A DNA stretch of 64,000 nucleotides, taken from positions 1,302,001 through 1,366,000 of the forward strand of contig NZ_CP014228.1 in NCBI RefSeq assembly GCF_001553565.1. The letters run 5' to 3'. The stretch's first letter is position 1. Every line of letters begins with the position of its first letter. This document shows positions 12,995 to 54,902 of this stretch, piece after piece. The translations under genes were made by a program, and so were the position numbers. Below the pieces are notes generated by a model that saw nothing but the letters and a program-made list of their open reading frames with translations, was not told where the DNA came from and did no database searches. Source of the DNA: Actinomyces radicidentis. GTDB lineage: Bacteria > Actinomycetota > Actinomycetes > Actinomycetales > Actinomycetaceae.

Positions 12995-13855
12995 GTGCTC
13001 ACCACCATCCGCCCCAACGCCAGGCGCAGCGCCGCACCGCCGGCCGACGCCTCCCGCGAGCCCACGGGGCGACCGCCGTCGACGGACGCGCGGGGCTCCG
13101 CGCAGGTCGTCGCCCTCACCGGCGCCGTCGGAGGGCTGGGCGTGAGCGCCCTCCTCCTCCACCTCGCCCGCGCCAGCGCCGCCCTCGGACGCCGCGTCGC
13201 CGTCCTCGACCTCGATCCCGCCGGCTGCCTCGGCACGCTCCTGGGCGACGAGTCCCGGCCCGGCCTGCGCTGGGCGGACCTGCCCGTGGACGAGACCGCC
13301 TTCCGGGCGGACCTCCTCGTCGCCGCCCTGCCCACCTGGATCGGCATGCCCGTCCTCACCGGTGACGAGCGCGGTGGACCGGTGCGCCCGGAGCAGGCGG
13401 GCCCCGCGCTCGCGGCCCTCGCCGAGGACCACGACCTCGTCCTCGTCGACCTGCCCCGCGGGGCGACGCCTCCGACGGGCGCACGCGTCCTTCTCGTCAC
13501 CGGAACGGACCTCCGCACCGCGGTCGCCGCACAGGCGATCTCCGCCAGGTTCGAGGAGGCTCAGGACCCCGCCGCGCCCGGTGGCACGGCGCCGCCCCTC
13601 AGCCTCGTCCTGCGCGACGGAGCCCAGGACCTCGACGAGGCCGACCTCGTCACCATGACCGGCGGCGACGTCCTCGCCCGACTGCCCACCGACCGCTCCG
13701 TCCCGCAGCACGTCGAGCGCGGCGACGATCCCACGCGCGGCCGCGGCGGGGTGCGGCGCTGCGCCCGCGTCCTCGCCGCCCTCCTCGCCGAGGAGCACGA
13801 GGACAGCGCCCGCCCTGGTGCCGGCCCGGACGCCCGGACGCGGAGCCGGCCGTGA
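12995..13855 (+). CDS. Ssd/CpaE-like septum-site/pilus-localisation ATPase homologue
   Basis: 286-residue MinD-superfamily protein. The P-loop region reads GAVGGLGVSALLLHLARA, a deviant Walker A without the usual lysine pair, followed by VAVLDLDPAGC and LVLVDLPRG. This matches actinobacterial Ssd (septum-site determining) and CpaE-like proteins, which direct Tad machinery or affect division. The start GTG is fixed by AGGAGG five nt upstream. Its GTGA end overlaps the start of tadA by 4 nt, so the genes are translationally coupled. Confidence 0.85.
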   Translation: MLTTIRPNARRSAAPPADASREPTGRPPSTDARGSAQVVALTGAVGGLGVSALLLHLARASAALGRRVAVLDLDPAGCLGTLLGDESRPGLRWADLPVDETAFRADLLVAALPTWIGMPVLTGDERGGPVRPEQAGPALAALAEDHDLVLVDLPRGATPPTGARVLLVTGTDLRTAVAAQAISARFEEAQDPAAPGGTAPPLSLVLRDGAQDLDEADLVTMTGGDVLARLPTDRSVPQHVERGDDPTRGRGGVRRCARVLAALLAEEHEDSARPGAGPDARTRSRP

Positions 13856-15171
13856 GCGCCCGTGCCCTCCCGCTCCCGCGTGCGGGAGCCGACCGGACGG
13901 GGTGGGGCTCCGGCGCCGCCCGAGGCTCCACGGCCGACGGGGCGGGCAAGGCAGCGCGGACGCGCCCGTCGGCAGGATCGCCCCTGCCTGACGCGGCGGA
14001 CGGCGAGCTCGAGCGCGTCCGCAGCGCCCTCGCCCGGGGCTCCGATCTCGCCGTCGCCCTCGCGGTCGGAGCCGGCGCGGCCACCGGCGCCACGGGCCTC
14101 GCCCGTCTCGAGGGAGCCGTGCGAGCCGACGTCGAGGGCGCCGGCCCCGTCCTCCAGCCCCTCCTCGAGACCGACGGCGTCACCGACGTCCTCGTCGGAG
14201 GGGGCGTCAGCTGGATCGACCGCGGCGCCGGCCTCGAACCGGTCGAGGACGCTGCCCTCACCGAGGCCGAGGCCCGCGCGCTCGCCGTACGCATGGCCGC
14301 CGCGTGCGGGCGACGGCTCGACGATGCCAGCCCCGTCGTCGACGCCACCCTCCCCGGCGGCACCCGCCTCAACGCGGTGCTCCCGCCGCTGTCCGCCGAC
14401 GGCACCCTCATCTGCCTGCGCACCTCGCGGCGACGCGCCTTCACCCTCGCCGAGCTCAGCGCCGACGGCACCCTCGCACCCGGCCTCGAGCCCGTCCTCG
14501 CCGCGCTCGTCGCACGGAGGGCCTCCTGCCTCGTCACCGGCGCCACCGGCACCGGCAAGACGACGCTCCTGGCGGCCCTGCTCGGTCTCGTGCCCGCCAC
14601 TGAGCGGATCGTCTGCATCGAGGAGGCCAGTGAGCTGCGCCCCGCCCACCCCCACGTCATCCATCTCCAGGAGCGCGGCGAGAACGTCCAGGGCGTCGGT
14701 GCCGTCCCCATGACCGCGCTCGTGCGCACCGCCCTGCGCATGCGTCCCGACCGGATCGTCCTCGGCGAGTGCCGTGGCCCCGAGGTCCGTGACGTCCTCA
14801 CCGCCCTCAACACGGGGCACGAGGGCGGCTGGGCCACCCTTCACGCCAACTCCCCGGCAGACGTCCCCGCCCGCCTCACGGCCCTCGGCGCGCTCGCGGG
14901 CATGGACGAGCGCGCGGTCGCCGCCCAGGCGGCCAGCGCCCTCGACGCCGTCGTCCACCTCGTCCGCGTCCCCGGCCGACGCCGCACCCGCCGCGTCGTC
15001 GCCTCCGTCGGGGTCCTGCGGCGCGAACCCGGGCGCGACGGCGCGCTCCTGTGCGAGGACGCGCTGCTGAGGGCACCGGGCGGTCGACTCTCCGCGGGGC
15101 CGGCAGCGGGCCGACTCGCCGAGCGCCTCGGCGGCGGGGTGGTCGAGGCGGCGCTCGGAGGCGCTGCATGA
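13852..15171 (+). CDS. tadA: TadA/CpaF type secretion ATPase
   Basis: 439-residue hexameric ATPase of the Tad (Flp pilus) type IV-like secretion system, cytoplasmic. An N-terminal domain precedes the RecA-like core, with Walker A GATGTGKTT, the Asp box region IVCIEEASELR, Walker B DRIVLGECRG and a His box near GHEGGWATLHANS. Its start overlaps the ssd stop (GTGA) and its stop overlaps the TadB/C start (ATGA), so ssd-tadA-tadB/C is one operon. About 100 N-terminal residues are less conserved. Confidence 0.93.
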   Translation: MSARALPLPRAGADRTGWGSGAARGSTADGAGKAARTRPSAGSPLPDAADGELERVRSALARGSDLAVALAVGAGAATGATGLARLEGAVRADVEGAGPVLQPLLETDGVTDVLVGGGVSWIDRGAGLEPVEDAALTEAEARALAVRMAAACGRRLDDASPVVDATLPGGTRLNAVLPPLSADGTLICLRTSRRRAFTLAELSADGTLAPGLEPVLAALVARRASCLVTGATGTGKTTLLAALLGLVPATERIVCIEEASELRPAHPHVIHLQERGENVQGVGAVPMTALVRTALRMRPDRIVLGECRGPEVRDVLTALNTGHEGGWATLHANSPADVPARLTALGALAGMDERAVAAQAASALDAVVHLVRVPGRRRTRRVVASVGVLRREPGRDGALLCEDALLRAPGGRLSAGPAAGRLAERLGGGVVEAALGGAA

Positions 15172-16445
15172 CGGGGGAGTGGGCCGGGACCGCGCTCCCC
15201 GTCGCGCTGCTCCTCGCGCTCGCGACGGCCGTCCTGCTCCTGCCGCCGCGTCGGGAGCGACCCGTGGCGGGTCGTCGTCCGCGGGGAGGCGGAGCCTCGG
15301 CGGAGGACGGCGCACGCCGCGGTACGGACGCGTCCGGGTCGGATTCGAGCCACGCGGTCCCGGAGCTCGCCGGTGAGCTCGACATCGGTCTCGTCCTCAC
15401 CGAGGTCGCGACCCTCCTGCGCGCCGGCGCGACCCCGCAGCGCGCCTGGGAGAGGGCCCTCGGGCGGGCCGGCGTCCGCGCCGGCGTCGAGCCCGGGGAC
15501 GACGGCGTCCCGCCGGTCCTCCGTGCCCTCGGCGAGGCGCCGGTGCCCTCCTGGCTGCCGTCCTTCTCGCGCTCGGAGGGCTCCACCGGCGCTCCGGGCC
15601 GTGGACGTGGGAGCCGGCGCGGCCTCCCGCTGCCCGATCCGGCAGCGGCCCGTCGCGCCCGCGCGGCACGGGCGGCGGCCCCGGGCGCCGTCGCCGCCTG
15701 CCGTCTCACCGCCGAGCTCGGCGCCCCGCTCGCGGGGATCCTCGAGACGGTCGCGGACGGCGTCGCCGAGGCCGGCCACGCCGACTCCTCGCGCCGCACC
15801 GCCCTGTCCGGTCCCCGTGCGACCGCTCGGCTGCTCGCCTGCCTGCCGCTCCTCGGGCTCCTGCTCGGCCAGGCGGTCGGTGCGCACCCCTCCGAGGTGC
15901 TCCTCGACGGAGGCTGGGGCAGCGCCCTGGGTCTCCTCGGGATCGGCCTCATGGCCCTCGGACAGCTCCTCACCGTGCGTCTCGTCCGCGCCGCGGAGGG
16001 GGAGGCCGACGTCGTCGACGAGGCCCTCGTCCTCGACCTCGCCGGCGCCGCCCTCGGTGCGGGAGCCTCCCTGCCAGGAGCGCTTCAGGCGCTCGGGGCC
16101 GCTCTCGACGAGGAGCCGCTCGCCGTCGTCGGCCGCGCCCTTCTCCTCGGCGCCTCCTGGGGCGCCGCCTGGCGGGCGCCCGAGGACGCCGGCTGGCGGG
16201 CGCGGCGGGCCCGGCTCGAGCAGAGCCTGCGCCCCGGCTGGGAGGACGGCGCCTCGCCGGGCCCGCTGCTCGCCGGGACAGCGCGGGCGCTTCGGGCCGG
16301 ACGCGCCGCACGGGACGAGGAGGCGGCCGAACGCCTCGCCGTGCGCCTTGTCGTGCCTCTCGGCCTGTGCTTCCTACCCGCCTTCGTCGTCCTCGGGATC
16401 GTCCCCGTCATCGCCGGCGTCGGTCTGGACCTCCTCGCGGCCTGA
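15168..16445 (+). CDS. Fused TadB/TadC-like Tad secretion membrane protein
   Basis: 425 residues. It looks like a fusion of the two inner-membrane platform proteins. The first half carries LDIGLVLTEVATLLRAGATPQRAWERAL and a membrane segment. The second half repeats the theme as VLDLAGAALGAGASLPGALQALG and ends in the membrane segment LVVPLGLCFLPAFVVLGIVPVI typical of TadC. In related actinobacteria tadB and tadC are two genes. ATGA overlap with tadA. The next genes are not the expected prepilin (DUF4244) and TadE genes, which makes this Tad cluster incomplete here. Confidence 0.85.
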   Translation: MTGEWAGTALPVALLLALATAVLLLPPRRERPVAGRRPRGGGASAEDGARRGTDASGSDSSHAVPELAGELDIGLVLTEVATLLRAGATPQRAWERALGRAGVRAGVEPGDDGVPPVLRALGEAPVPSWLPSFSRSEGSTGAPGRGRGSRRGLPLPDPAAARRARAARAAAPGAVAACRLTAELGAPLAGILETVADGVAEAGHADSSRRTALSGPRATARLLACLPLLGLLLGQAVGAHPSEVLLDGGWGSALGLLGIGLMALGQLLTVRLVRAAEGEADVVDEALVLDLAGAALGAGASLPGALQALGAALDEEPLAVVGRALLLGASWGAAWRAPEDAGWRARRARLEQSLRPGWEDGASPGPLLAGTARALRAGRAARDEEAAERLAVRLVVPLGLCFLPAFVVLGIVPVIAGVGLDLLAA

Positions 16446-16469
16446 GCCCCCGCCGGGCACAATGGCCCC

Positions 16470-17282
16470 GTGAGCAGCCCGGAACCGCGCAGCGACACCG
16501 GCCCCGACGCAGCGCCGGAGAGCGCTCCGCCCCCGGTCCTTCCCGTCGCCCCCGACGGCACCGTCCACCTCGGCGCCGATGTCCGAGGCATCCTCGTCGA
16601 CATCGACGGGGTCCTCGCCGACCACCGCACGGCCGCCGACGCCGCGGTCTACTCCTGGGCGTCCACACTCCCCGGCTGGGCCCTCGGCCCCGCCGAGACC
16701 GCCGACCTCTGGGAGCGCCTCGACCGCAAGCACTTCCTGCGCTACCAGCACGGCGAGCACACCTTCAACGGCCAGCTGCTCGCCCGCGTGCGGGAGTTCG
16801 TCCCCGGCGCCGCCGACCTCGACGACGACGCGGCCCAGGCGCACATCGACGACTACTACGCCCACTACCGCGCCCGTCTCGTCCCGTACCCGGACGTCGC
16901 CGGCTTCATCGCAGGGCTCCGCGACGCCGTCGCCCGACGCGGCGCCGCGGGCGAGCGGCTCGCCGTCGCCTACGTGACCAACGGGGACGAGGAGTCCCAG
17001 CGGATCAAGCTCGACGCCGTCGGCGCCCTCGTCGAGGACTGGCCCCTCATCGCCTCCGCCGAGGTCGCGGCCTCCAAGCCGGATCCACGGATCTTCGCCC
17101 TCGCCTGCGAGAGCATCGGCACCACGCCCGACGTGACCGTCATGGTCGGCGACGACCCCTGGTCCGACGTCGACGGCGCCACCGGGGCCGGGTTGCGGTG
17201 CGTGCACCTGCGCCGCTCGCCGTCGGCGCCCTCCCGACCCGTCGCCACGATCGACACCCTCGCGCGCCTCGTCGTCGACTGA
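16470..17282 (+). CDS. HAD-IA family hydrolase
   Basis: 270 residues with motif I VDIDGVLAD, motif II VTNGD, the lysine in SKPDPRIF and motif III VGDDPWSDVDGA, all HAD subfamily IA features. Likely a small-molecule phosphatase; substrate unknown. About 40 proline-rich N-terminal residues precede the domain. GTG start at 16470 with CACAAT (16458-16463) 6 nt before it, a variant of the leaderless pattern seen across the window. It lies 24 nt after the TadB/C gene. Confidence 0.88.
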   Translation: MSSPEPRSDTGPDAAPESAPPPVLPVAPDGTVHLGADVRGILVDIDGVLADHRTAADAAVYSWASTLPGWALGPAETADLWERLDRKHFLRYQHGEHTFNGQLLARVREFVPGAADLDDDAAQAHIDDYYAHYRARLVPYPDVAGFIAGLRDAVARRGAAGERLAVAYVTNGDEESQRIKLDAVGALVEDWPLIASAEVAASKPDPRIFALACESIGTTPDVTVMVGDDPWSDVDGATGAGLRCVHLRRSPSAPSRPVATIDTLARLVVD

Positions 17283-44778: not shown

Positions 44779-46647
44779 TCAGTCCAGGGCCGCCGCGGGC
44801 AGGCTGACGGTGAAGGTCGTGCCGTGCTCGCCCGGTGCGCCGTCGCCCTCGCGGACGGAGTCAACGGTGAGCGTCCCGCCGTGCGATCGGACGATCGCCA
44901 GCGCGATGCTCATGCCGAGGCCGGTCGAGCCGGTGCGGCGCTCACGCGAGGAGTCGCCGCGGGCGAAGCGCTCGAAGAGCCGGTCGCGCACGGCCGGGTC
45001 GATGCCGGGGCCGTCGTCGGCGATGCGGATGACGAGCCGGTCGCCGTCGGCGCCCTGCTCGCGGCTGAGCGTCGTCGTCACGTGCGTGCCGGTGGGCGTG
45101 TGGACGCGGGCGTTGGCGAGGAGGTTGACGACCACCTGCCGCAGCCGGGCCTCGTCGCCGATGACGAGCGGCGGCTCGGGCTCGACGTCCTCGTCGCCGT
45201 CCGCGGTGCCGTCGTCCGTCGCCGCCCCGTCCTCGAGGACGGCCAGGTCGAGGTCCCACTCCTGCTCGGGCCCGGCGGCCCGCGCGTCGGAGACGGTGTC
45301 CAGGAGGAGGCCGACGAGGTCGACCTCCTCGTGGTGCAGCTCGCGCCCGGCGTCCAGGCGTGCGAGGAGCAGCAGGTCCTCGACGAGGGCCGTCATGCGC
45401 AGCGACTCGGAGTGGACGCGCTCGAGGGCGTGCGTCGCCTCCTCGGGCAGCTGGGCGTCGGCGCCCTCGCGCTGGATGAGCTCGGTGTAGCCGCGGATCG
45501 AGGCGAGCGGCGTGCGCAGCTCGTGCGAGGCGTCGGCGACGAACTGGCGCACCTGCGTCTCGGAGCGCTGGCGGGCCGACAGGGCCTCCTCGACGTGCCC
45601 GAGGAGCGTGTTGAGGGCGCCGCCCACCTGCCCGACCTCCTGCGAGGAGGCGAGGTCCTCGTCCTCGACGCGCTCCTCGATGCTCACCTCGCCGCGGGCG
45701 AGGGGCTGGGAGGCGACGCGCTCGGCGGTCGCGGCGACGCGCTCCAGCGGCGCGAGGGAGGAGCGGACGATGAGGCGCCCGGCCACCGCTGCCAGGAGCG
45801 CACCGACGACGGCGATGGCCGCCTCGATGATGAGCTGCTTGCGCACGAGGGCGTTGTCGTCGGCCAGCGACAGCCCCGTGACGACGACGTCGCCGGTCGT
45901 CGAGTCCTTCGTGACGAGGACCCGGTAGTCGCCGAGCGAGTCGATCGCGACGGTGACCGGCTCGCCGGAGGGCTCGAGGGAGAGCAGCGCCTCGCACTCG
46001 GCCGTCGACAGGCTCCGGTACTGACCGGAGTCGTCGATGTAGCCGGCAGTGACCGTCGAGGTGCCGTCCGAGGAGTCGCCGGGGGCGATGAGCGTGAGCG
46101 TGCCCGTGGACTGGCCGGCGGCGTCGAGGCCCGCCGGGACGCCCGGGTCGTCCTTGTCGCCGTCGCCCGGGGCGACGGCCCCCGGCGGCGGGGTCTGTGA
46201 GGTGCCCGACGGCGTCTGCTGGGCGCCGGAGGGCGGCTGCTGGTCGCCCGCCGCCGGGGAGGGGCCGGCGGAGGGGATCGAGGTGGCGGCCGAGGTCGGC
46301 TTGGTGGCGTCGGTGGCGTCGGCGTCCTTCTGGATGCCGGCACGGCGGGTGGCGGCGCGGTCCGAGGCGGCGCTCAGCTGCGTGTCGAGCCGGTCCATGA
46401 GCGTGTGGCGCAGCGTGAGCGTCGAGAAGGCGCCCATGAGCACGCAGACGACGAGGACGAGGCCGAGCACGCCGGCGACGAGGCGGGTGCGCAGGCTGCG
46501 CGGGTGGCGCGCGGCGCCCGGCTGCTCGGCGGCGTGCTGCGCCGTCGTCGGCGTCTGCTGGGCCTCGGTGGAGGACACGGTGGCGGGACCGGAGGGCGCG
46601 GCTGCGCCGTCGGCCCGGCCGGGCTCGGGGGAGGGGGTGGTGGGCAC
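44779..46647 (-). CDS. Sensor histidine kinase (PhoR/TcrY-like)
   Basis: 622 residues. Disordered N-terminus (about 55 residues), first membrane helix near 57-80, an extracytoplasmic sensor domain of about 190 residues rich in Pro/Thr/Asp, a second helix, HAMP domain (VRSSLAPLERVAATAERVA), the H-box ASHELRTPL, N-box VVNLLANARVH and G-boxes DDGPGID and GSTGLGMSIA. Partner of the response regulator at 47808. GTG start with TAGGGT (complement of 46654-46659) 6 nt upstream. The IS481 copy 2 is inserted in this -10 element and separates the kinase from its regulator. Confidence 0.93.
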   Translation of the reverse strand: MPTTPSPEPGRADGAAAPSGPATVSSTEAQQTPTTAQHAAEQPGAARHPRSLRTRLVAGVLGLVLVVCVLMGAFSTLTLRHTLMDRLDTQLSAASDRAATRRAGIQKDADATDATKPTSAATSIPSAGPSPAAGDQQPPSGAQQTPSGTSQTPPPGAVAPGDGDKDDPGVPAGLDAAGQSTGTLTLIAPGDSSDGTSTVTAGYIDDSGQYRSLSTAECEALLSLEPSGEPVTVAIDSLGDYRVLVTKDSTTGDVVVTGLSLADDNALVRKQLIIEAAIAVVGALLAAVAGRLIVRSSLAPLERVAATAERVASQPLARGEVSIEERVEDEDLASSQEVGQVGGALNTLLGHVEEALSARQRSETQVRQFVADASHELRTPLASIRGYTELIQREGADAQLPEEATHALERVHSESLRMTALVEDLLLLARLDAGRELHHEEVDLVGLLLDTVSDARAAGPEQEWDLDLAVLEDGAATDDGTADGDEDVEPEPPLVIGDEARLRQVVVNLLANARVHTPTGTHVTTTLSREQGADGDRLVIRIADDGPGIDPAVRDRLFERFARGDSSRERRTGSTGLGMSIALAIVRSHGGTLTVDSVREGDGAPGEHGTTFTVSLPAAALD

Positions 46648-46655
46648 GGATCGAC

Positions 46656-46661
46656 CCTAGT
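46656..46661. repeat. IS481 copy 2 target site duplication, left
   Basis: CCTAGT, identical to 47765-47770. It overlaps the -10 hexamer of the kinase gene (complement of 46654-46659). Confidence 0.85.
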
Positions 46662-47764
46662 TGTACTGATCGGGGAGGTTGGTTGAAGGACTGCGATCGG
46701 CTTGTATGAGGTGAGGAGAGCACCGGGTGCTGGCAGGGTGGGGCTTGCGACAGTCTCACCGAGCAGTACGAGAGGTGCTCTCCTCATGTCCCACGCTAAC
46801 GCAGCCCTGACCCCACGCGCCCGGCAGCGGGTGGCCCGCCTTGTCGTTGAGGAGGGCTACCCCATCAGCGAGGTCGCCGCCCGATTCCAATGCTCATGGC
46901 CCACCGTCAAACGCTGGGTGGACCGCTACCGCGCCGGGGAGGCGATGACCGACCGCTCCAGCCGCCCCCACTCCAGCCCCAACCGCACCCCCACCACCGT
47001 GGTACGCCGGGTGGTCAGCCTGCGCAGCCGCCTGCGGGAGGGCCCCGTCCAGCTCGCCGCCCGCACCGGCATCGCACCCTCGACGGTGCACCGCATCCTC
47101 AACACGGCCAGGCTGAACCGCCTCTCCTACCTCGACCGCGCCACCGGGCAGGTCGTACGCCGCTACGAGCACGAGAGCCCCGGTTCCCTGGTCCACGTCG
47201 ACGTCAAGAAGGTCGGCAACATCCCCGACGGCGGTGGCTGGAGGTACGTGGGACGCACCCAGGGTGACCACAACCGCCAGACCACCGACGGCGCCAGGCG
47301 CAGGCACGGTCAGCCTCGTCTGGGGTGGGCCTACGTCCACTCCGTGCTCGATGACCACTCGCGCGTGGTCTACTCCGAGGTCCACGACGACGAGAAGGCT
47401 GCCACCGCTGTCGGTGTCCTGCAGCGGGCGGTGGCGTGGTTCGCCGCCCGCGGGGTGGTCGTTCAGCGGGTGCTGTCCGACAATGGGGCCGCCTACAGGT
47501 CACGGGCCTGGACCCAGGCCTGCGAGCGCCTGGGGGTCAAGGCCCGCTACACCAGGCCCTACCGGCCTCAGACCAACGGGAAGATCGAGCGGTACCACAG
47601 GACCCTGGCTGATGGGTGGGCCTACTCCCGCCACTACGCCAGTGAGGCCGAGCGCCGCGCCGCACTGCCGGCATGGACCCACTTCTACAATCACCACCGC
47701 CCCCACACCGCCACCGGCGCCCTCCCACCGATCACGAGGTTGACCAACCTCCCCGATCAGTACA
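46662..47764 (+). mobile_element. IS481-family insertion sequence (copy 2)
   Basis: 1,103-bp element with perfect 22-bp inverted repeats (46662-46683 and 47743-47764, outer bases TGTACTGATC) and a 6-bp CCTAGT target duplication. It carries one intact transposase gene on the plus strand, opposite to the two-component genes it interrupts. A different subtype from copy 1 (distinct repeats, diverged transposase). Confidence 0.93.
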
Positions 47765-47769
47765 CCTAG
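46786..47769 (+). CDS. IS481-family transposase
   Basis: 327-residue DDE transposase: helix-turn-helix (YPISEVAARFQCSWPTVKRW), a second HTH-like segment, then the rve core with LVHVDVKK, VLSDNGAAY and NGKIERYHR giving the D, D and E. The ATG at 46786 follows AGAGG. The last codons read through the right inverted repeat, and the TAG stop (47767-47769) lies in the CCTAGT target duplication, not in the element itself. Intact and probably active. Confidence 0.94.
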   Translation: MSHANAALTPRARQRVARLVVEEGYPISEVAARFQCSWPTVKRWVDRYRAGEAMTDRSSRPHSSPNRTPTTVVRRVVSLRSRLREGPVQLAARTGIAPSTVHRILNTARLNRLSYLDRATGQVVRRYEHESPGSLVHVDVKKVGNIPDGGGWRYVGRTQGDHNRQTTDGARRRHGQPRLGWAYVHSVLDDHSRVVYSEVHDDEKAATAVGVLQRAVAWFAARGVVVQRVLSDNGAAYRSRAWTQACERLGVKARYTRPYRPQTNGKIERYHRTLADGWAYSRHYASEAERRAALPAWTHFYNHHRPHTATGALPPITRLTNLPDQYT

Positions 47770-47770
47770 T
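47765..47770. repeat. IS481 copy 2 target site duplication, right
   Basis: CCTAGT, identical to 46656-46661; its TAG is the transposase stop codon. Confidence 0.85.
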
Positions 47771-47807
47771 GGCCGGTGCTGTGCGGGCCGCGGTCCGGCG
47801 GCGTCCC

Positions 47808-48560
47808 TCAGCGGGACGCCGGCGCGCTCGCGGCCCCCTCGGTGGGCTTGAGGACGTAGCCGACGCCGCGCATCGTGTGGATCATCGGCTCGCGGCCCTT
47901 GTCGATCTTGCGGCGCAGGTAGGAGATGTAGAGCTCGACGATGTTCGCCTGCCCGCCGAAGTCGTAGTTCCACACGCGGTCGAGGATCTGCGGCTTAGAC
48001 AGGACGCGGCGCGGGTTGCGCATGAGGTAGCGGAGCAGCTCGAACTCGGTGGCGGTCAGGTGGATCTCGTCCTGGCCGCGCCAGACCTCGTGGGAGTCCT
48101 CGTCCATCCGCAGGTCGCCGACCTCGAGGACGTTGGACTCCTGCTCCTGGTTCGCGCCGGAGCGGTGCAGGAGGGCGCGCAGGCGGGCGACGACCTCCTC
48201 CAGGGAGAAGGGCTTGGTGACGTAGTCGTCGCCGCCGGCGGTGAGGCCCGCGACGCGGTCCTCGACGGCGTCCTTGGCCGTGAGGAAGAGGATCGGGACG
48301 CCGGGCTGGTGGCCGTGGATCCGGCGCATGACCTCGAGGCCGTCGAAGTCCGGCAGCATGATGTCGAGGACGACGACGTCGGGCTCGATCTCCTTGGCGG
48401 CCTGCACGGCCTTGATGCCGGTGCCGGCGGTCGTCACCTCCCAGCCCTCGTAGCGCAGGGCGGAGGCGAGCAGGTCGGCGAGCATCTGCTCGTCGTCGAC
48501 GACGAGGACCCGCACGGGGGAGCCGTCCGGGCGGGTGAGGGTCTCGTTGGAAGCGGTCAT
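47808..48560 (-). CDS. OmpR/PhoP-family response regulator
   Basis: 250 residues. Receiver domain with D22/D23, phosphoacceptor D66 (VVLDIMLPD) and Lys in TKPFSLEEVVARLR, then a winged-helix domain (LTATEFELLRYLMRNPRRVLS, QILDRVWNYDFGGQANIVELYISYLRRKID, MRGVGYVLK). The wording of the output domain is very close to mycobacterial PhoP. The frame is open further upstream into the IS256 element, but the true start is the ATG complementary to 48558-48560. It is the partner of the kinase at 44779, now separated from it by IS481 copy 2, and has IS256 DNA beginning 46 nt upstream of its start. Confidence 0.94.
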   Translation of the reverse strand: MTASNETLTRPDGSPVRVLVVDDEQMLADLLASALRYEGWEVTTAGTGIKAVQAAKEIEPDVVVLDIMLPDFDGLEVMRRIHGHQPGVPILFLTAKDAVEDRVAGLTAGGDDYVTKPFSLEEVVARLRALLHRSGANQEQESNVLEVGDLRMDEDSHEVWRGQDEIHLTATEFELLRYLMRNPRRVLSKPQILDRVWNYDFGGQANIVELYISYLRRKIDKGREPMIHTMRGVGYVLKPTEGAASAPASR

Positions 48561-48582
48561 GGGAAGGAGTGAACACGAGTTG

Positions 48583-48600
48583 CCTGTGGCGATCCTGTGA
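48583..48600 (-). promoter_or_regulatory. PhoP-like direct-repeat box upstream of the response regulator
   Basis: On the minus strand TCACAGG (complement of 48594-48600), four bases, then CCACAGG (complement of 48583-48589): two 7-mers at an 11-bp period. This is the layout I recall for mycobacterial PhoP sites (TCACAGC-N4-TCACAGC) and suggests autoregulation. A third related word, TCACAAG, lies on the far side of the IS256 insertion. Confidence 0.55.
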
Positions 48601-48605
48601 ACTGC
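48598..48605. repeat. IS256-family target site duplication, left
   Basis: TGAACTGC, identical to 50010-50017. Confidence 0.85.
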
Positions 48606-50009
48606 GGGTGCGTCCCTTAGCGTGGTGGCAATTCCCGCGGGGTCCACGGCGTCGACGGTCTTGTCGTCGGGTGGGCATCGTGGGACCCAGATTCTCGACC
48701 AGGATTCACTAGGAGTGCTCCCACGATGCCCGCCACCAAGTCTGCCGTGTCCACGCTGATCCAGGAAGTGCTGGCCGATCCCGACCTGGCTCACGATGAC
48801 GTCTTCCGCCGTCTGCTGGGCGCGGGACTGCAGGACCTCATTGACGCCGAGGCTGAGGCGGTCATCGGCGCCTCGCGCTACGAGCGCACCCCCGAGCGAG
48901 TCACCCGCCGCAACGGGAAGCGCTCCAAGACGGTTGCGACCACCGCCGGACAGGTGGACCTGGCCATCCCCAAGCTCCGCCAGGGCTCCTTCTTCCCCAG
49001 TCTGCTCAACCCCCGCAAGAGGATCGACAAGGCCCTGTACGCCGTGGTCGCCACCGCCTGGGTCGAGGGGGTCTCCACCCGCAAGGTCGACGACCTGGTC
49101 AAGGCCCTGGGATGCGAGTCGGGGATCTCCAAGTCGTCGGTGTCGCGGATCTGCACCGACATCGACGAGGCTGTCGGCGCGTTCCTGAACCGACCCCTGG
49201 ACCACACGTGGTTCCCGTACCTGTTCGTGGACGCCACCTACCTGGACGTGAGAGTCGGGCATCGGGTCGTCTCCCAGGCCGTCGTGGTCGCCACCGGCGT
49301 CTCAGCCGCGGGGCGCCGCGAGATCCTGGGCATGGCGGTGGGTGACAGCGAGTCCACCGACTTCTGGACCAGCTTCCTGCGGTCCTTGCGCGAGCGCGGC
49401 CTGAAGGCCCCCTCGCCCTCCGACCCCACCGGGGTGGTCATGGTCACCAGCGACGCCCACGCCGGCATCCGCGCCGCCGTCAAGGCGATCCTGCCCGGAG
49501 CGGCCTGGCAGCGCTGCCGCGTCCACTTCGCCCGCAACATCACCTCCCACCTGGGGTCGGTGCGCTCCAAGCCCGTCAATGCCCTGATCTCCACCGTGTT
49601 CGCCCAGACCACCCCCGAGGCCGTGCGCGCCACCTACCACCAGGTCATCGACTCCCTGCGCGCCTCCTTCCCCGACGTCGCCGACATGCTCACCGACGCC
49701 GAGGCCGACCTGACCGCCTTCTCGGTCCTGCCCAGGGAGCACTGGGTCAAGGTGTGGTCCAACAACCCCATCGAGCGCCTCAACCGCGAGATCAAGCGCC
49801 GCGCCGACGTCGTCCAGGTCTTCCCCAACCCAGACTGCGTCACCCGCCTTATCGGCGCCGTCCTGCTCGACCAGCACGAGGAATGGCAGTACGGCGAACG
49901 CCGCTACCTGTCCGAGACCTCCATGCAACGACTCACCCACACCCTCACCAACGACACCCAACCCCTGCCCCTGACGGCCTGAAAGAACACCACAACAAGG
50001 GACTTGACC
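48606..50009 (+). mobile_element. IS256-family insertion sequence
   Basis: 1,404-bp element flanked by the 8-bp duplication TGAACTGC. Imperfect terminal repeats: left GGGTGCGTCCCTTAGCGTGG and right complement GGTCAAGTCCCTTGTTGTGG, sharing GTCCCTT and GTGGTG. One transposase gene fills it. Inserted in the upstream region of the PhoP-like regulator. Confidence 0.92.
48726..49982 (+). CDS. IS256-family (Mutator-type) transposase
   Basis: 418 residues with features of the IS256 DDE group: YERTPERVTRRNGKRSKTVAT near the N-terminus, FVDATYLDVR with the first Asp, SDAHAGIRAAVKAILPGAAWQRCRVHFARN with the second Asp and the C-x-x-H motif, and WSNNPIERLNREIKRRADVV with the catalytic Glu. Uninterrupted and of normal length, so probably functional. 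ATG at 48726. Confidence 0.95.
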   Translation: MPATKSAVSTLIQEVLADPDLAHDDVFRRLLGAGLQDLIDAEAEAVIGASRYERTPERVTRRNGKRSKTVATTAGQVDLAIPKLRQGSFFPSLLNPRKRIDKALYAVVATAWVEGVSTRKVDDLVKALGCESGISKSSVSRICTDIDEAVGAFLNRPLDHTWFPYLFVDATYLDVRVGHRVVSQAVVVATGVSAAGRREILGMAVGDSESTDFWTSFLRSLRERGLKAPSPSDPTGVVMVTSDAHAGIRAAVKAILPGAAWQRCRVHFARNITSHLGSVRSKPVNALISTVFAQTTPEAVRATYHQVIDSLRASFPDVADMLTDAEADLTAFSVLPREHWVKVWSNNPIERLNREIKRRADVVQVFPNPDCVTRLIGAVLLDQHEEWQYGERRYLSETSMQRLTHTLTNDTQPLPLTA

Positions 50010-50017
50010 TGAACTGC
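50010..50017. repeat. IS256-family target site duplication, right
   Basis: TGAACTGC, identical to 48598-48605. Confidence 0.85.
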
Positions 50018-50102
50018 CTTGTGAGCTGCGCCGACGGCGTCGCGTCGGGAACGACGGCGGCTCTCGGACACGCACCTCGAAGGTGCTCGGTATGCTCCTG
50101 GT

Positions 50103-51251
50103 ATGAATCCAGGGCTCGGCACGCTGACCGTCGAAGGCCTGGGGTCGGTCCGTGGGCTCACGCTCGACCTTACGACAGGCGTCACCGTCCTCATTGGTGC
50201 CAACGGGGCGGGCAAGTCCAACCTGGTGAGTGCCTTCGAACTTGTGTCCCGTATCTGGGACGACTCCTTCCAGGATTATCTCTTCCAGCGCGGTGGGGTG
50301 AGCAACGTACTCTTCGAGGGGCCCGAGGGGCCCGCCACCGAGATGAGGATCCGGCTGCTCGCCGATGAGGACGCCGAGGGCAACCGTAGCGGCTACGACG
50401 TCCGGCTCAAGGAGAACCCTGCAGACGCAATGGGTGAAGTGGTGCTCCTGGAGCGCCTCCTCTTCCAGGCGCCCGGGTATCCGAAGCCCTACGACGAAAG
50501 TCTTGGGATCTGGGCTGTAACAAGTCGAGCACGGCGGATCGCCTCCGGTGACGCCAAGGGGAGACGGGCGAACTTCGTAGCGCACGTCCGCCCGCTGCTG
50601 GAGGGTTGTCGTGTCTTCCACTTCGACGACGTTTCGGACAACGCTCCCGTCAAGGGGTGGTCGACGGTGGGTGACGATGTCGAGCTCCGTGCAGACGCTG
50701 AGAATATTGCCGCCTACCTCTACAAGGTACGTGAGGATTATCCACGCCACTACCAACGGATCGTCAGCGCCGTACGAGCGGTGACGCCCTTCTTCGACGA
50801 CTTCGTCCTGGAACCGGGCAGGAACGAGAGGATTCGGCTCCGATGGCGCCAGACGGGACTTGACCGCACCTTCCTCGCCCGCGAGGCCAGTGACGGGACG
50901 CTCCGGTTCATCTGTCTGGCGACGCTCCTGCTCGGCCCGGACCGCCCCGCGACCGTGGTGCTTGACGAGCCTGAGCTGGGCCTCCACCCGGCGGCCATCG
51001 ACATGCTTGTCGAGATGGTGAGGACGGCTGCCGAGCGAGGGCACAAGGTCATTCTCGCCACGCAGTCCGTCCCTCTCGTCTCCCACTTCAGCGTGGAGGA
51101 GATCGCTGTCCTCGAGCGCGATGACGGCGCTACGGTGGTCACCAGACCCGACGCCGAACGTCTGTCCGCCTTCCTCGACGACTACTCCACCGGAAACCTC
51201 TGGGAGATGAACCTCCTGGGAGGTCGGCCCGTGCCGGAGACCGCCGCATGA
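50103..51251 (+). CDS. AAA_21-type ABC/RecF-like ATPase, candidate defence sensor
   Basis: 382 residues of the SMC/RecF-like AAA_21 group. Walker A GANGAGKSN (residues 32-40), a Q-loop-like region after it, signature-like ASDGTLRFICLATLLL, Walker B VVLDEPELGLHP with D288/E289, and a switch region ILATQS. No coiled coil long enough for SMC function. It overlaps the DUF4276 gene by ATGA, which points to a two-protein system such as the ATPase-TOPRIM antiphage modules. TATGCT at 50091-50096 lies 6 nt before the ATG, a leaderless promoter. Base use is somewhat less GC-extreme than its neighbours, consistent with transfer. Confidence 0.9.
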   Translation: MNPGLGTLTVEGLGSVRGLTLDLTTGVTVLIGANGAGKSNLVSAFELVSRIWDDSFQDYLFQRGGVSNVLFEGPEGPATEMRIRLLADEDAEGNRSGYDVRLKENPADAMGEVVLLERLLFQAPGYPKPYDESLGIWAVTSRARRIASGDAKGRRANFVAHVRPLLEGCRVFHFDDVSDNAPVKGWSTVGDDVELRADAENIAAYLYKVREDYPRHYQRIVSAVRAVTPFFDDFVLEPGRNERIRLRWRQTGLDRTFLAREASDGTLRFICLATLLLGPDRPATVVLDEPELGLHPAAIDMLVEMVRTAAERGHKVILATQSVPLVSHFSVEEIAVLERDDGATVVTRPDAERLSAFLDDYSTGNLWEMNLLGGRPVPETAA

Positions 51252-51892
51252 GCCGCATGAACGGCCCGCGCGAGGTGCTCGTCTTGGTCGAGGGACCGAC
51301 TGAGGAGGCGATGATCAAGCGTGTTCTCGCACCGGCAGCGTTCAACGAGGGTCTCATCCTCATTCCCTCCCCGGTCATCACCTCGAAGACCGCGCAGGGG
51401 ACTCACCGTGGCGGAGGAGCCTGGAAGCACTACGACGAGCGTCTCAAGGACATGTTCAAGGCGACCCACTTCACGAAGATCGCCCTACTGATCGACTACT
51501 ACAAGTACCCGTCCAATGCGCCCGGCGCCTCGGGCGACCCCGACGAGTGCGAGAGAGCGCTCGTCGAGGACTACCCAGACCATCGCTTTCGCCCGCACGT
51601 CGTCATGCACGAGATCGAGGCGCTCGTCCTCGCCGCGATCGCGGCCGGTTACGGTGACGAGCGTTTCGATAAGGTTCGCCTGCGTCACCTGCGGCAGGTC
51701 ATCGAGCGTGCGGGCGGGCCTGAGAAGGTCAATAACGGTGAGGCGACGGCACCGTCGAAGAGGCTCAAGATCCTCGATCCCGCTTACGGGAAGATCGCCG
51801 TCGGACCTGAGCTTGTCGCGGAAGCGGGTCTGGGCGCGGTCCTTGAGCAGTGCCCCCGGTTCGCGACGTGGTGGGAGGAGCTGCTGTCCTGA
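51248..51892 (+). CDS. DUF4276 protein (TOPRIM-like), candidate nuclease effector
   Basis: 214 residues. The N-terminus VLVLVEGPTEEAMIKRVL has the TOPRIM-type glutamate (E15), and ALLIDYYKYPSNAPG carries the acidic residue D83 that is typical of DUF4276, followed by ERALVEDYP and HVVMHEIEALVLA (H121, E122, E124). These acidic positions could bind metal as in TOPRIM nucleases. Translationally coupled to the ATPase (ATGA). DUF4276 genes next to AAA_21 ATPases recur in bacterial accessory regions. Enzymatic activity is inferred, not shown. Confidence 0.88.
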   Translation: MSRMNGPREVLVLVEGPTEEAMIKRVLAPAAFNEGLILIPSPVITSKTAQGTHRGGGAWKHYDERLKDMFKATHFTKIALLIDYYKYPSNAPGASGDPDECERALVEDYPDHRFRPHVVMHEIEALVLAAIAAGYGDERFDKVRLRHLRQVIERAGGPEKVNNGEATAPSKRLKILDPAYGKIAVGPELVAEAGLGAVLEQCPRFATWWEELLS

Positions 51893-52052
51893 GGTGCGCC
51901 GACGGATCAATCCCTCTGAGCGACTGACGGGAGCCTGAGCCGGGCACGGATCGGGTCGATTGACGTCCGTGCGTGTCGGCGCCGTGGGTTACAGTCGGCC
52001 CGTCGCCGCGCTCCCGCGGTCTCACGCCGTCTCCGCGAGGAAGAAGGTCCCC

Positions 52053-54902
52053 GTGTCCAAGAAGCTCGTCATCGTCGAGTCCCCGAACAAGGTCCGCTCC
52101 ATCGCGGGCTACCTCGGGTCGGACTTCGACGTCGAGGCCTCCGTCGGGCACATCCGCGACCTCGCCCAGCCCTCCGAGCTGCCCGCCGCGGAGAAGAAGG
52201 GCCCCTACGGCAAGTTCGCCGTGGACACCGAGGACGGGTTCAAGCCGTACTACGTCGTCAACGCGGACAAGAGGAAGACGGTCACCCAGCTCAAGAAGGC
52301 CCTCAAGGAGGCCGACGAGCTCTACCTCGCCACCGACGACGACCGCGAGGGCGAGGCCATCGCCTGGCACCTGCGCGAGGTCCTCAAGCCCAAGGTCCCC
52401 GTCAAGCGCATGACCTTCACGGAGATCACCAAGGAGGCCGTCACCCGCGCGCTGGACAACACGCGCGACCTCGACCTCGACCTCGTCGACGCCCAGGAGA
52501 CCCGTCGTATCCTCGACCGCCTCGTCGGCTACGAGGTCAGCCCCGTCCTGTGGCGCAAGGTCCGCGCCGGCCTGTCCGCCGGCCGCGTCCAGTCCGTCGC
52601 CACCCGCCTCGTCGTCGAGCGCGAGCGGGAGCGCATGGCCTTCAAGGCCGCCGGCTACTGGGGCGTCGAGGCCGAGCTCTCCACCACGCTGTCCAAGGTC
52701 GACGCCGTCGCCGCTCAGTCCAACGCCTTCACCGCCCGCCTCGCCACCCTCGACGGGCGCCGCGTCGCCACCGGCCGCGACTTCACCGACGCCGGCGAGC
52801 TACGCCCCGCCGCCGTCAAGGCCGGCACCGTGCACCTCCACGAGGGCGCCGCCAAGGCCGTCGCCGACGCCGTCCTGCGCGGGGCGCCGCGCGTGGCTGC
52901 CGTCGACGAGAAGCCCTACAAGCGCCGCCCCGCCGCCCCCTTCACCACCTCCACGCTCCAGCAGGAGGCCTCCCGCAAGCTGCGGATGAACCCCCGGGAG
53001 ACCATGCGCGTCGCGCAGGGCCTCTACGAGAACGGCTTCATCACGTACATGCGAACGGACTCCACGGTCCTGTCCTCGCAGGCCGTGGGTGCCGCCCGCT
53101 CGCAGGTGGCCGAGCTCTACGGCGCCGAGTACGTCCCCGCCAAGCCCCGCGTCTACGCCACCAAGACCAAGGGCGCCCAGGAGGCCCACGAGGCGATACG
53201 CCCCGCGGGGGACCACTTCCGCACCCCCGCCCAGGTCTCCGGGCAGCTCTCCGGCGCGCAGTTCCGCCTCTACGAGCTCATCTGGAAGCGCACCGTCGCC
53301 TCCCAGATGGCCGACGCCGTCGGCTCCACGGCCACGGTGCACGTCGACGTCCCGCTCGCCCCGGCCGACGGCGGCTCGCGCGACTCCGGCCTCACCTTCG
53401 GCACGGCCGGCTTCACCGCCTCCGGCACCGTCATCACCTTCCGCGGCTTCCTCGCCGCCTACGAGGAGGGCCGCGACGCCGAGCGCTACGAGGACGCGAA
53501 GTCCTCCAAGGGGGACAAGGACGTGCGCCTGCCCTCCATGATCGAGGGCCAGGAGCTCGCCGCCCTGGGATCGGAGGCTTCCGGCCACGAGACCACCCCG
53601 CCGCCCCGCTACACGGAGGCCTCGCTCGTCAAGGCCCTCGAGGAGCGCGAGATCGGCCGCCCCTCGACCTACGCGGCCACCATGTCCACGATCTCGGACC
53701 GCGGGTACGTCGAGCACCGCGGCCAGGCCCTCGTGCCCACGTGGCTCGCCTTCGCGGTGACCCGCCTGCTCGAGGAGAACTTCGCCGAGCTCGTCGACTA
53801 CGACTTCACCGCGTCTATGGAGCGCGACCTCGACCGCATCGCCGCCGGCGAGGAGGACCGCGTCGCCTGGCTCACCCGCTTCTACGGGGGTGAGGGCGAC
53901 GCCGCCGGCGCCACCCCCATCCCGACGGACGACTCCGGCGAGAACCGCGGCCTCAAGGCCATGGTCGAGAACCTCGGCGAGATCGACGCCCGCGCCGTCA
54001 ACTCCATCGAGATCGGCGAGGGCATCACCCTGCGCGTGGGCCGCTACGGGCCCTACCTCGAGTCCGAGGACGGCAAGCGCGCCAACGTCCCCGCCGACGT
54101 CGCCCCCGACGAGCTCACCGTCGCCAAGGCCAAGGAGCTCTTCGAGCGCGCTGCCGACGACGGCCGTGAGCTCGGCACCGACCCGTCCACCGGCCACACC
54201 ATCATCGCCAAGGACGGCCGCTACGGCCCCTACGTCACCGAGGTCCTCCCCGAGCCCGAGGAGGAGAAGGACGCCGAGGCGGCGGCCGCCGACGGCGAGG
54301 ACGGCGAGAAGCCGAAGAAGAAGCCCGCGCGCAAGAAGGCCGTCAAGGGCCCGAAGCCGCGCACGGCCTCCCTCTTCAAGTCGATGAGCCTGTCCACCGT
54401 CACCCTCGAGCAGGCCCTCGACCTGCTCAGCCTGCCCCGCGTCGTCGGGCAGGACGACGAGGGCGTCGACATCACCGCCCAGAACGGCCGCTACGGGCCG
54501 TACCTCAAGAAGGGCACCGACTCGCGCTCCCTGGAGAGCGAGGACCAGCTCTTCACGGTGACCCTCGAGCAGGCCAACGAGATCTTCGCCCAGCCCAAGC
54601 GCCGCCGCGGCCAGGCCGCCCCCAAGGCGCCGCTGCGCGAGCTCGGCACGGACCCGACCTCGGGGCGCCCCGTCGTCATCAAGGACGGGCGCTTCGGCCC
54701 GTACTTCACGGACGGGGAGACGAACGTGACCCTGCGCCGCGACGACGACCCGGCCACCGTCACCCCGGAGCGCGCCTACGAGCTCCTCGCCGAGAAGCGC
54801 GCCAAGGGCCCGGCCAAGAAGCGCACCACGCGGAAGACGACGGCCAGGAAGACGACGACGCGCAAGACGACGGCCAAGAAGTCGACCACGAAGAAGTCCT
54901 GA
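52053..54902 (+). CDS. topA: DNA topoisomerase I
   Basis: 949-residue type IA topoisomerase that relaxes negative supercoils. TOPRIM domain KKLVIVESPNKVRSIAGYL with DDDREGEAIAWHL; catalytic tyrosine Y332 in ENGFITYMRTDST; four C-terminal topoisomerase repeats marked by GRYGPY or GRFGPY words; and a Lys/Thr-rich tail (about 45 residues) common in actinobacterial TopA. The GTG at 52053 follows AAGAAGG; the frame is open to an upstream TTG at 51960 but without homology. Heads the topA-tmk-holB block. Confidence 0.97.
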   Translation: MSKKLVIVESPNKVRSIAGYLGSDFDVEASVGHIRDLAQPSELPAAEKKGPYGKFAVDTEDGFKPYYVVNADKRKTVTQLKKALKEADELYLATDDDREGEAIAWHLREVLKPKVPVKRMTFTEITKEAVTRALDNTRDLDLDLVDAQETRRILDRLVGYEVSPVLWRKVRAGLSAGRVQSVATRLVVERERERMAFKAAGYWGVEAELSTTLSKVDAVAAQSNAFTARLATLDGRRVATGRDFTDAGELRPAAVKAGTVHLHEGAAKAVADAVLRGAPRVAAVDEKPYKRRPAAPFTTSTLQQEASRKLRMNPRETMRVAQGLYENGFITYMRTDSTVLSSQAVGAARSQVAELYGAEYVPAKPRVYATKTKGAQEAHEAIRPAGDHFRTPAQVSGQLSGAQFRLYELIWKRTVASQMADAVGSTATVHVDVPLAPADGGSRDSGLTFGTAGFTASGTVITFRGFLAAYEEGRDAERYEDAKSSKGDKDVRLPSMIEGQELAALGSEASGHETTPPPRYTEASLVKALEEREIGRPSTYAATMSTISDRGYVEHRGQALVPTWLAFAVTRLLEENFAELVDYDFTASMERDLDRIAAGEEDRVAWLTRFYGGEGDAAGATPIPTDDSGENRGLKAMVENLGEIDARAVNSIEIGEGITLRVGRYGPYLESEDGKRANVPADVAPDELTVAKAKELFERAADDGRELGTDPSTGHTIIAKDGRYGPYVTEVLPEPEEEKDAEAAAADGEDGEKPKKKPARKKAVKGPKPRTASLFKSMSLSTVTLEQALDLLSLPRVVGQDDEGVDITAQNGRYGPYLKKGTDSRSLESEDQLFTVTLEQANEIFAQPKRRRGQAAPKAPLRELGTDPTSGRPVVIKDGRFGPYFTDGETNVTLRRDDDPATVTPERAYELLAEKRAKGPAKKRTTRKTTARKTTTRKTTAKKSTTKKS

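Follow-up and report, generated by a model that had tools for sequence, protein, structure and literature searches.

A mobile ATPase–DUF4276 gene pair beside topA in Actinomyces radicidentis belongs to the catalogued candidate system HEC-01

The two genes that lie between an IS256-type element and topA in the window (the whole stretch of 64,000 nucleotides of Actinomyces radicidentis DNA that was analysed) form a real, mobile and already catalogued candidate module. They represent no new kind of system. Because both genes are matched over nearly their full length by the HEC-01A and HEC-01B models of PADLOC-DB 2.0.0, the pair is an added member of HEC-01, and the sequence-only reading, which had presented it as a poorly described system, has to be revised on this point. 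HEC stands for Hma-embedded candidate (PMC10855318; PMC12988326). In the parts of the literature drawn on here, several HECs, HEC-06 among them, are described as antiviral in assays (PMC12988326), and HEC-01 is listed as a predicted system. Full-text literature searches, with preprints outside their scope, returned no mention of DUF4276 and no statement on HEC-01 activity. The pair probably acts as a member of this candidate defence system, with an ATPase that restrains a TOPRIM-like nuclease and a phage signal that frees it.

The first gene (50103..51251, forward strand) encodes an AAA_21 or OLD/AriA-like ABC ATPase of 382 amino acids (Pfam AAA_21, 1.2e-31), of which residues 5–376 match the HEC-01A model PDLC04175 at 1.5e-119. 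The second (51248..51892, forward strand) encodes a DUF4276 protein of 214 amino acids (PF14103, 1.4e-34), a TOPRIM-like putative nuclease whose residues 8–213 match the HEC-01B model PDLC04188 at 3.8e-54. The open reading frame list of the window bears out the claim that the two genes overlap by ATGA. GC content is 0.65 across the pair, against 0.68–0.72 in the flanking kilobases on either side. Among the 29 DUF4276 proteins of one alignment (A1), 18 match PDLC04188 and 10 match PDLC04196, as overall counts with members not itemised. Judged by open reading frames and Pfam matches, neither a helicase nor a methyltransferase adjoins the pair in the window, which lies next to topA, whereas some plasmid members of HEC-01 sit within restriction operons. 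Embedding in Hma is treated here as the way in which HEC-01 was found and not as a condition of membership, a requirement stated in none of the sources drawn on.

The ATPase carries the two nucleotide-binding motifs that had been read from its sequence. Walker A, claimed at residues 32–40, is GANGAGKS at residues 32–39 (50196..50219, forward strand), with G32, N34, G35, G37, K38 and S39 invariant in both 14-sequence ATPase alignments (A6 and A10). Walker B (D288/E289; 50964..50969, forward strand) is invariant in the same two alignments. Columns around Walker A have a mean identity of 0.88 and those near the signature and Walker B one of 0.87; across residues 73–166 (50319..50600, forward strand) the mean falls to 0.30–0.33. 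This variable stretch is a candidate trigger-reading region, a sensing use suggested by its low column identity. Searched against solved structures, the ATPase profile (alignment A2) finds OLD (6p74) best, at 2.6e-21, and also PtuA, the OLD protein of retron Eco8, AriA and GajA, with weaker matches to SMC, UvrA and transporters.

The DUF4276 protein is likely TOPRIM-like, on the strength of profile comparison. Aligned by hhalign with the 29 OLD-TOPRIM regions matched by PF20469, the 29 DUF4276 proteins give a probability of 90 (E 1.7e-6, score 46) over positions 5–209 of 219. One hundred column shuffles score at most 14.8, the reversed alignment 10.6, and response regulators reach a probability of 0.4. 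Smaller sets give a weaker link: 81 over 61 columns for group A, 84 over 34 for a set of 14 sequences (A5), and 43 for group B. Among solved structures, no match to DUF4276 was found, the best E values being 0.95 for the single sequence and 0.044 for the profile. The sequence-only reading had named E15, D83 and an HEIEA patch, and all three are upheld by conservation. Seventeen close DUF4276 proteins all share E15, E19, D83, H121, E122 and E124, and D83 is invariant in all 29. On the forward strand, E15-x-x-x-E19 (51290..51304) would be the first acidic motif of TOPRIM, with E15 aligning to the VEG of OLD-TOPRIM; D83 (51494..51496) occupies the place of the first Asp in the TOPRIM DxD; and H121-E122-I-E124-A lies at 51608..51622. 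DxD is the usual TOPRIM motif, and the close DUF4276 group mostly has DYY there: 18 close members of A1 read DYY (15), DFY (2) or DYD (1), and among 11 distant members eight have DxDD and the others DREN, DRET and DSDS. The earlier description of an AAA_21 gene joined to a TOPRIM-like DUF4276 gene is thus sustained by profiles, with the fold itself still a prediction at that level.

An architecture of ABC ATPase plus TOPRIM protein had been likened to OLD, Gabija and PARIS, and the ATPase matches to OLD, AriA and GajA agree with this, as does the alignment of DUF4276 with OLD-TOPRIM. OLD nucleases and the GajA protein of Gabija also combine the two domains, but do so in a single polypeptide, as described in the relevant part of PMC10568477, while the window has two open reading frames and no helicase gene beside them. 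PARIS resembles the window pair in placing ABC ATPase and TOPRIM on separate genes, and the full alignment of DUF4276 with DUF4435 pairs D83 with Asp and HEIEA with EVEN. The effectors nevertheless differ, AriB being a DUF4435 protein: the comparison of all DUF4276 with DUF4435 (8 sequences) gives an hhalign probability of 7, against 90 for OLD-TOPRIM, with a score of 26.5 against at most 19.1 in 60 shuffles; taken singly, group A has a probability of 0.5 and group B one of 0.3. The distinction drawn earlier between DUF4276 and DUF4435 therefore stands. The window ATPase, too, scores 1.5e-119 with HEC-01A versus 9.5e-30 with AriA. AbiL/RloAB (AAA ATPase with RloB/AbiLii) shares the two-gene AAA–TOPRIM architecture, in the account given in part of PMC10440598. 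The AbiLi model matches the window ATPase at 3.6e-19, and RloB, represented by only three sequences, compares with DUF4276 at a probability of 2.3 for all members, 0.2 for group A and 20.5 for group B. The NetFlax AAA(D29)–TOPRIM_OLD pairs are a further likeness, with an AAA protein that neutralises a TOPRIM_OLD toxin; in the same part of that source, toxicity neutralisation assays established three AAA-neutralised toxin–antitoxin pairs, of which two have TOPRIM_OLD toxins (PMC10440598).

A leaderless start of the ATPase gene is credible on grounds of conservation, because a TANNNT box stands 6–7 nt before the start in all 19 of the homologous upstream regions counted (a 20th, L042, was left out for its frameshifted start) and is rare in controls (6/120 control genes, 0/817 shifted upstream positions and, over five loci, 0.43% of all positions). 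In the window this –10 box is TATGCT (50091..50096, forward strand), 6 nt before the ATG. A simple sigma-70 consensus scan of 49900–52100 found no promoter, so the putative promoter rests on conservation. Such a box is not special to the pair, since 36 of 123 neighbour genes, mtnN-like genes included, carry one too.

The order of elements is as claimed, with the pair between an IS256-type element and topA, and the inserted two-gene cargo extends approximately over 50018..51974, next to topA. The closest relative by topA (G011; 96%) lacks the pair and has no corresponding stretch. In its locus L238, positions 13036–13869 match 47765–48603 of the window and positions 13977–16893 match 51975–54872; the gap between these two blocks is 108 bp, as against 3.4 kb in the window, where it includes the IS256 element and the pair. 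The IS256-type element (48606..50009, forward strand; transposase PF00872, 1.5e-124) has ends defined by repeated copies in its own genome, where 14 matches, itself counted, include 12 that are near full length. Its position directly upstream could suggest that the pair is passive cargo moved as part of a transposon, its function being irrelevant. This reading is barely credible, for the element is flanked by its own 8-bp target duplication, TGAACTGC (48598–48605 and 50010–50017), and so inserted alone, as a separate event beside the cargo. Elsewhere, the pair is an insertion by itself: compared with the empty site of the pair-less genome G039 (L194), locus L040 carries about 1.9 kb bearing only the pair (L194 1–2395 corresponds to L040 5032–7435, and L194 2353–3729 to L040 9359–10735). 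The idea of mobile cargo at a core-gene border is accordingly supported by empty sites, patchy presence and transfer between species, and the role of IS256 as its vehicle is rejected. Further upstream, an IS481-type element (46660–47765), which has terminal repeats of 19 bp and is absent from G011, sits between a response regulator gene (47808–48572, reverse strand) and a histidine kinase gene (44779–46647, reverse strand), and may uncouple them.

Distribution and history also indicate that the pair is dispensable. Of 49 genus genomes, 25 have DUF4276, as do 10 of 396 genomes sampled from the phylum, both counts including the window's own genome and partial matches. The group-A ATPase is present in 20 of the 49 genus genomes and was not found in 29; a 21st match (G015), assigned to a distant group, is outside the 20. 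The two genes keep company: all 36 neighbourhoods of other DUF4276 matches have an ATPase gene upstream, on the same strand. A natural ATPase–DUF4276 fusion suspected in L063 proved to be an ATPase open reading frame with an upstream extension. Transfer between species follows from ATPase identities far above those of the mtnN-like gene (0.99 versus 0.77 for G009 and G031; 0.94 versus 0.79 for G012 and G038), the intact mtnN-like copy of G031 having been used and not the interrupted one that adjoins its pair. Vertical inheritance was rejected, as the two sets of identities show a weak correlation across 13 genomes (Spearman 0.24, permutation p 0.10). Being patchy in genus and phylum, the pair is not a universally conserved housekeeping operon, and it is not essential, because its ATPase is not found in 29 of 49 genomes, it has been transferred, and it is repeatedly broken. 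The same three observations make it highly improbable that the pair is a RecF/OLD-like ATPase and TOPRIM couple for DNA processing or repair. Such a cellular, non-defence role would resemble that of Cran1, an archaeal OLD-family protein that is cellular and apparently not antiviral, as the available part of its description has it (PMC12796447), and it would suit the commonest Pfam families among the neighbours in Actinomyces, which are ordinary.

The group-A module lies within 2.5 kb of a PNP_UDP_1 gene, which we take from its motifs to be mtnN-like, in 13 of 20 genomes, and 8 kb away in G038. It is elsewhere in G000, G010, G024, G025 and G034, and in G031 it adjoins an interrupted mtnN-like copy. 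In that genome, two mtnN-like fragments with another open reading frame between them (L048 5861–7512) stand directly upstream of the pair, and the intact copy is about 14 kb off on the other strand. A repeat of about 100 bp (L040 7280–7404 and 10650–10770) flanks variable cargo beside the mtnN-like gene and may aid exchange. ATP-nucleosidase effectors are known, and PNP_UDP_1 genes make up 11 of the 123 neighbours. Since they are so often directly upstream of the ATPase (9 of 11), such a partner was suspected. Every one of the 49 genus genomes, however, has PNP_UDP_1 (a single match each, except for a second, partial match in G031), so it was rejected as a third gene of the module; what varies is the site beside it.

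Most of the few broken copies are broken in the nuclease gene. G009 lacks about 260 bp within the nuclease gene, G047 has lost nuclease residues ~88–185, and G034 has a nuclease frameshift just past the first acidic motif, all with an open ATPase frame. Of the G017 nuclease gene, no more than the last 19 codons were found; its orphan ATPase frame is open and reads DEPG where the family has DEPE. An unrelated open reading frame of 227 amino acids (L241 10641–11324, reverse strand) occupies the position of the G017 nuclease gene. G043 shows the opposite decay, with the ATPase frameshifted and the nuclease open. The frameshifts in G034 and G043 could be sequencing errors. The pattern fits a costly effector, with a small count of four losses against one, too few to serve as proof of toxicity.

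A setting in defence islands, for which the sequence-only reading had proposed a survey, is not supported in Actinomyces. Among the three nearest genes on each side of 21 group-A loci (123 genes), six PADLOC families were found at 1e-20, with eight member hits, against 10 families and 13 member hits in 20 control regions (120 genes); no defence enrichment was seen for Actinomyces and three other loci. Neighbours came from a simple GC-frame caller that missed some genes, and L047 gave three instead of six at a contig end; among the controls, one of two overlapping random G031 regions was replaced by a hand-set place, chosen before fetching. Carriage by phages was set aside, as no DUF4276 relative was found in 50,697 phage records and no relative in IMG/VR by two pattern-based scans; the one phage match of the ATPase is distant (24.9% identity).

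Among the plasmid records that match, 12 in all, ten were opened (all but H5 and H11); the gene directly upstream of DUF4276 is annotated as an AAA ATPase in eight and is an unnamed gene of similar size in two. Four of the ten, which represent three distinct contexts, have the pair in the midst of restriction genes. In Aeromonas veronii pHX3, a type III methyltransferase (9.9e-241) stands on one side of it and a type III restriction enzyme (E 0) on the other. In two Aeromonas media plasmids it follows a DrmD-like helicase (1.5e-202, from a scan of one of them) and precedes a methyltransferase, and an Ideonella plasmid has a helicase and a methyltransferase, then the pair, then an Mrr gene. Next to the type III restriction genes on either side of the pair, pHX3 also encodes an OLD/AriA-like protein (L283 782–2659). 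Other plasmids, of 11–60 kb, carry the pair near vapBC, rep or par genes with no restriction genes beside it. These last contexts, the overlapping two-gene operon and the lack of defence enrichment in Actinomyces would all suit an addiction module, in which the ATPase neutralises a TOPRIM toxin and the pair stabilises its replicon or locus with no real role against phages. We regard this as unlikely, given the plasmids that place the pair among restriction genes, the variable stretch of the ATPase, and the size of that protein, 382 amino acids against the small antitoxin of the usual type II arrangement.

Under the preferred reading of the pair as a defence module, the ATPase, serving as sensor and restraint, would be co-translated with its effector, a TOPRIM-like and likely toxic nuclease that is presumably metal-dependent. 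In the uninfected cell it probably holds the DUF4276 nuclease inactive, and restraint until infection is the most likely arrangement by analogy with PARIS and the AAA-neutralised TOPRIM_OLD toxins. In PARIS, as set out in part of PMC12409363, AriA keeps AriB inactive and a phage trigger frees AriB, which leads to tRNA cleavage. Here, a phage signal, perhaps read by residues 73–166, would release the nuclease to cut nucleic acid. Host tRNA or other RNA is a slightly likelier substrate than DNA, by analogy with PARIS and TOPRIM_OLD, and growth would be halted before the phage multiplies. The lack of neighbour enrichment and of phage relatives, the opposite decay in G043, the DEPG of the orphan ATPase in G017, the DYY motif and the weaker links of the subgroups count against this defence reading. 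So does a screen of the BASEL coliphages with an AAA-neutralised pair that has a different toxin (AarT), which gave no hits, in the part of the source drawn on (PMC10440598).

A guard role for restriction is plausible because the pair is embedded in restriction operons on some plasmids, although the copy in the window lacks a neighbour of this kind. The model is AriA of PARIS, which senses Ocr. By extension, HEC-01 could guard restriction, the variable ATPase stretch sensing phage anti-restriction proteins and unleashing DUF4276, a further TOPRIM effector family, on a substrate of its own, and the Actinomyces guard would be a free two-gene cassette that circulates between species through the hotspot beside the mtnN-like core gene. 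We put this forward tentatively, as a conceivable but doubtful elaboration.

DUF4276, a domain of unknown function, is now tied by profile to the TOPRIM group, with named residues that lend themselves to testing. The genus also provides a natural HEC-01 series: empty sites, copies transferred recently and loci that naturally lack the nuclease. These natural variants make the proposal that HEC-01 is an abortive-infection switch directly testable.
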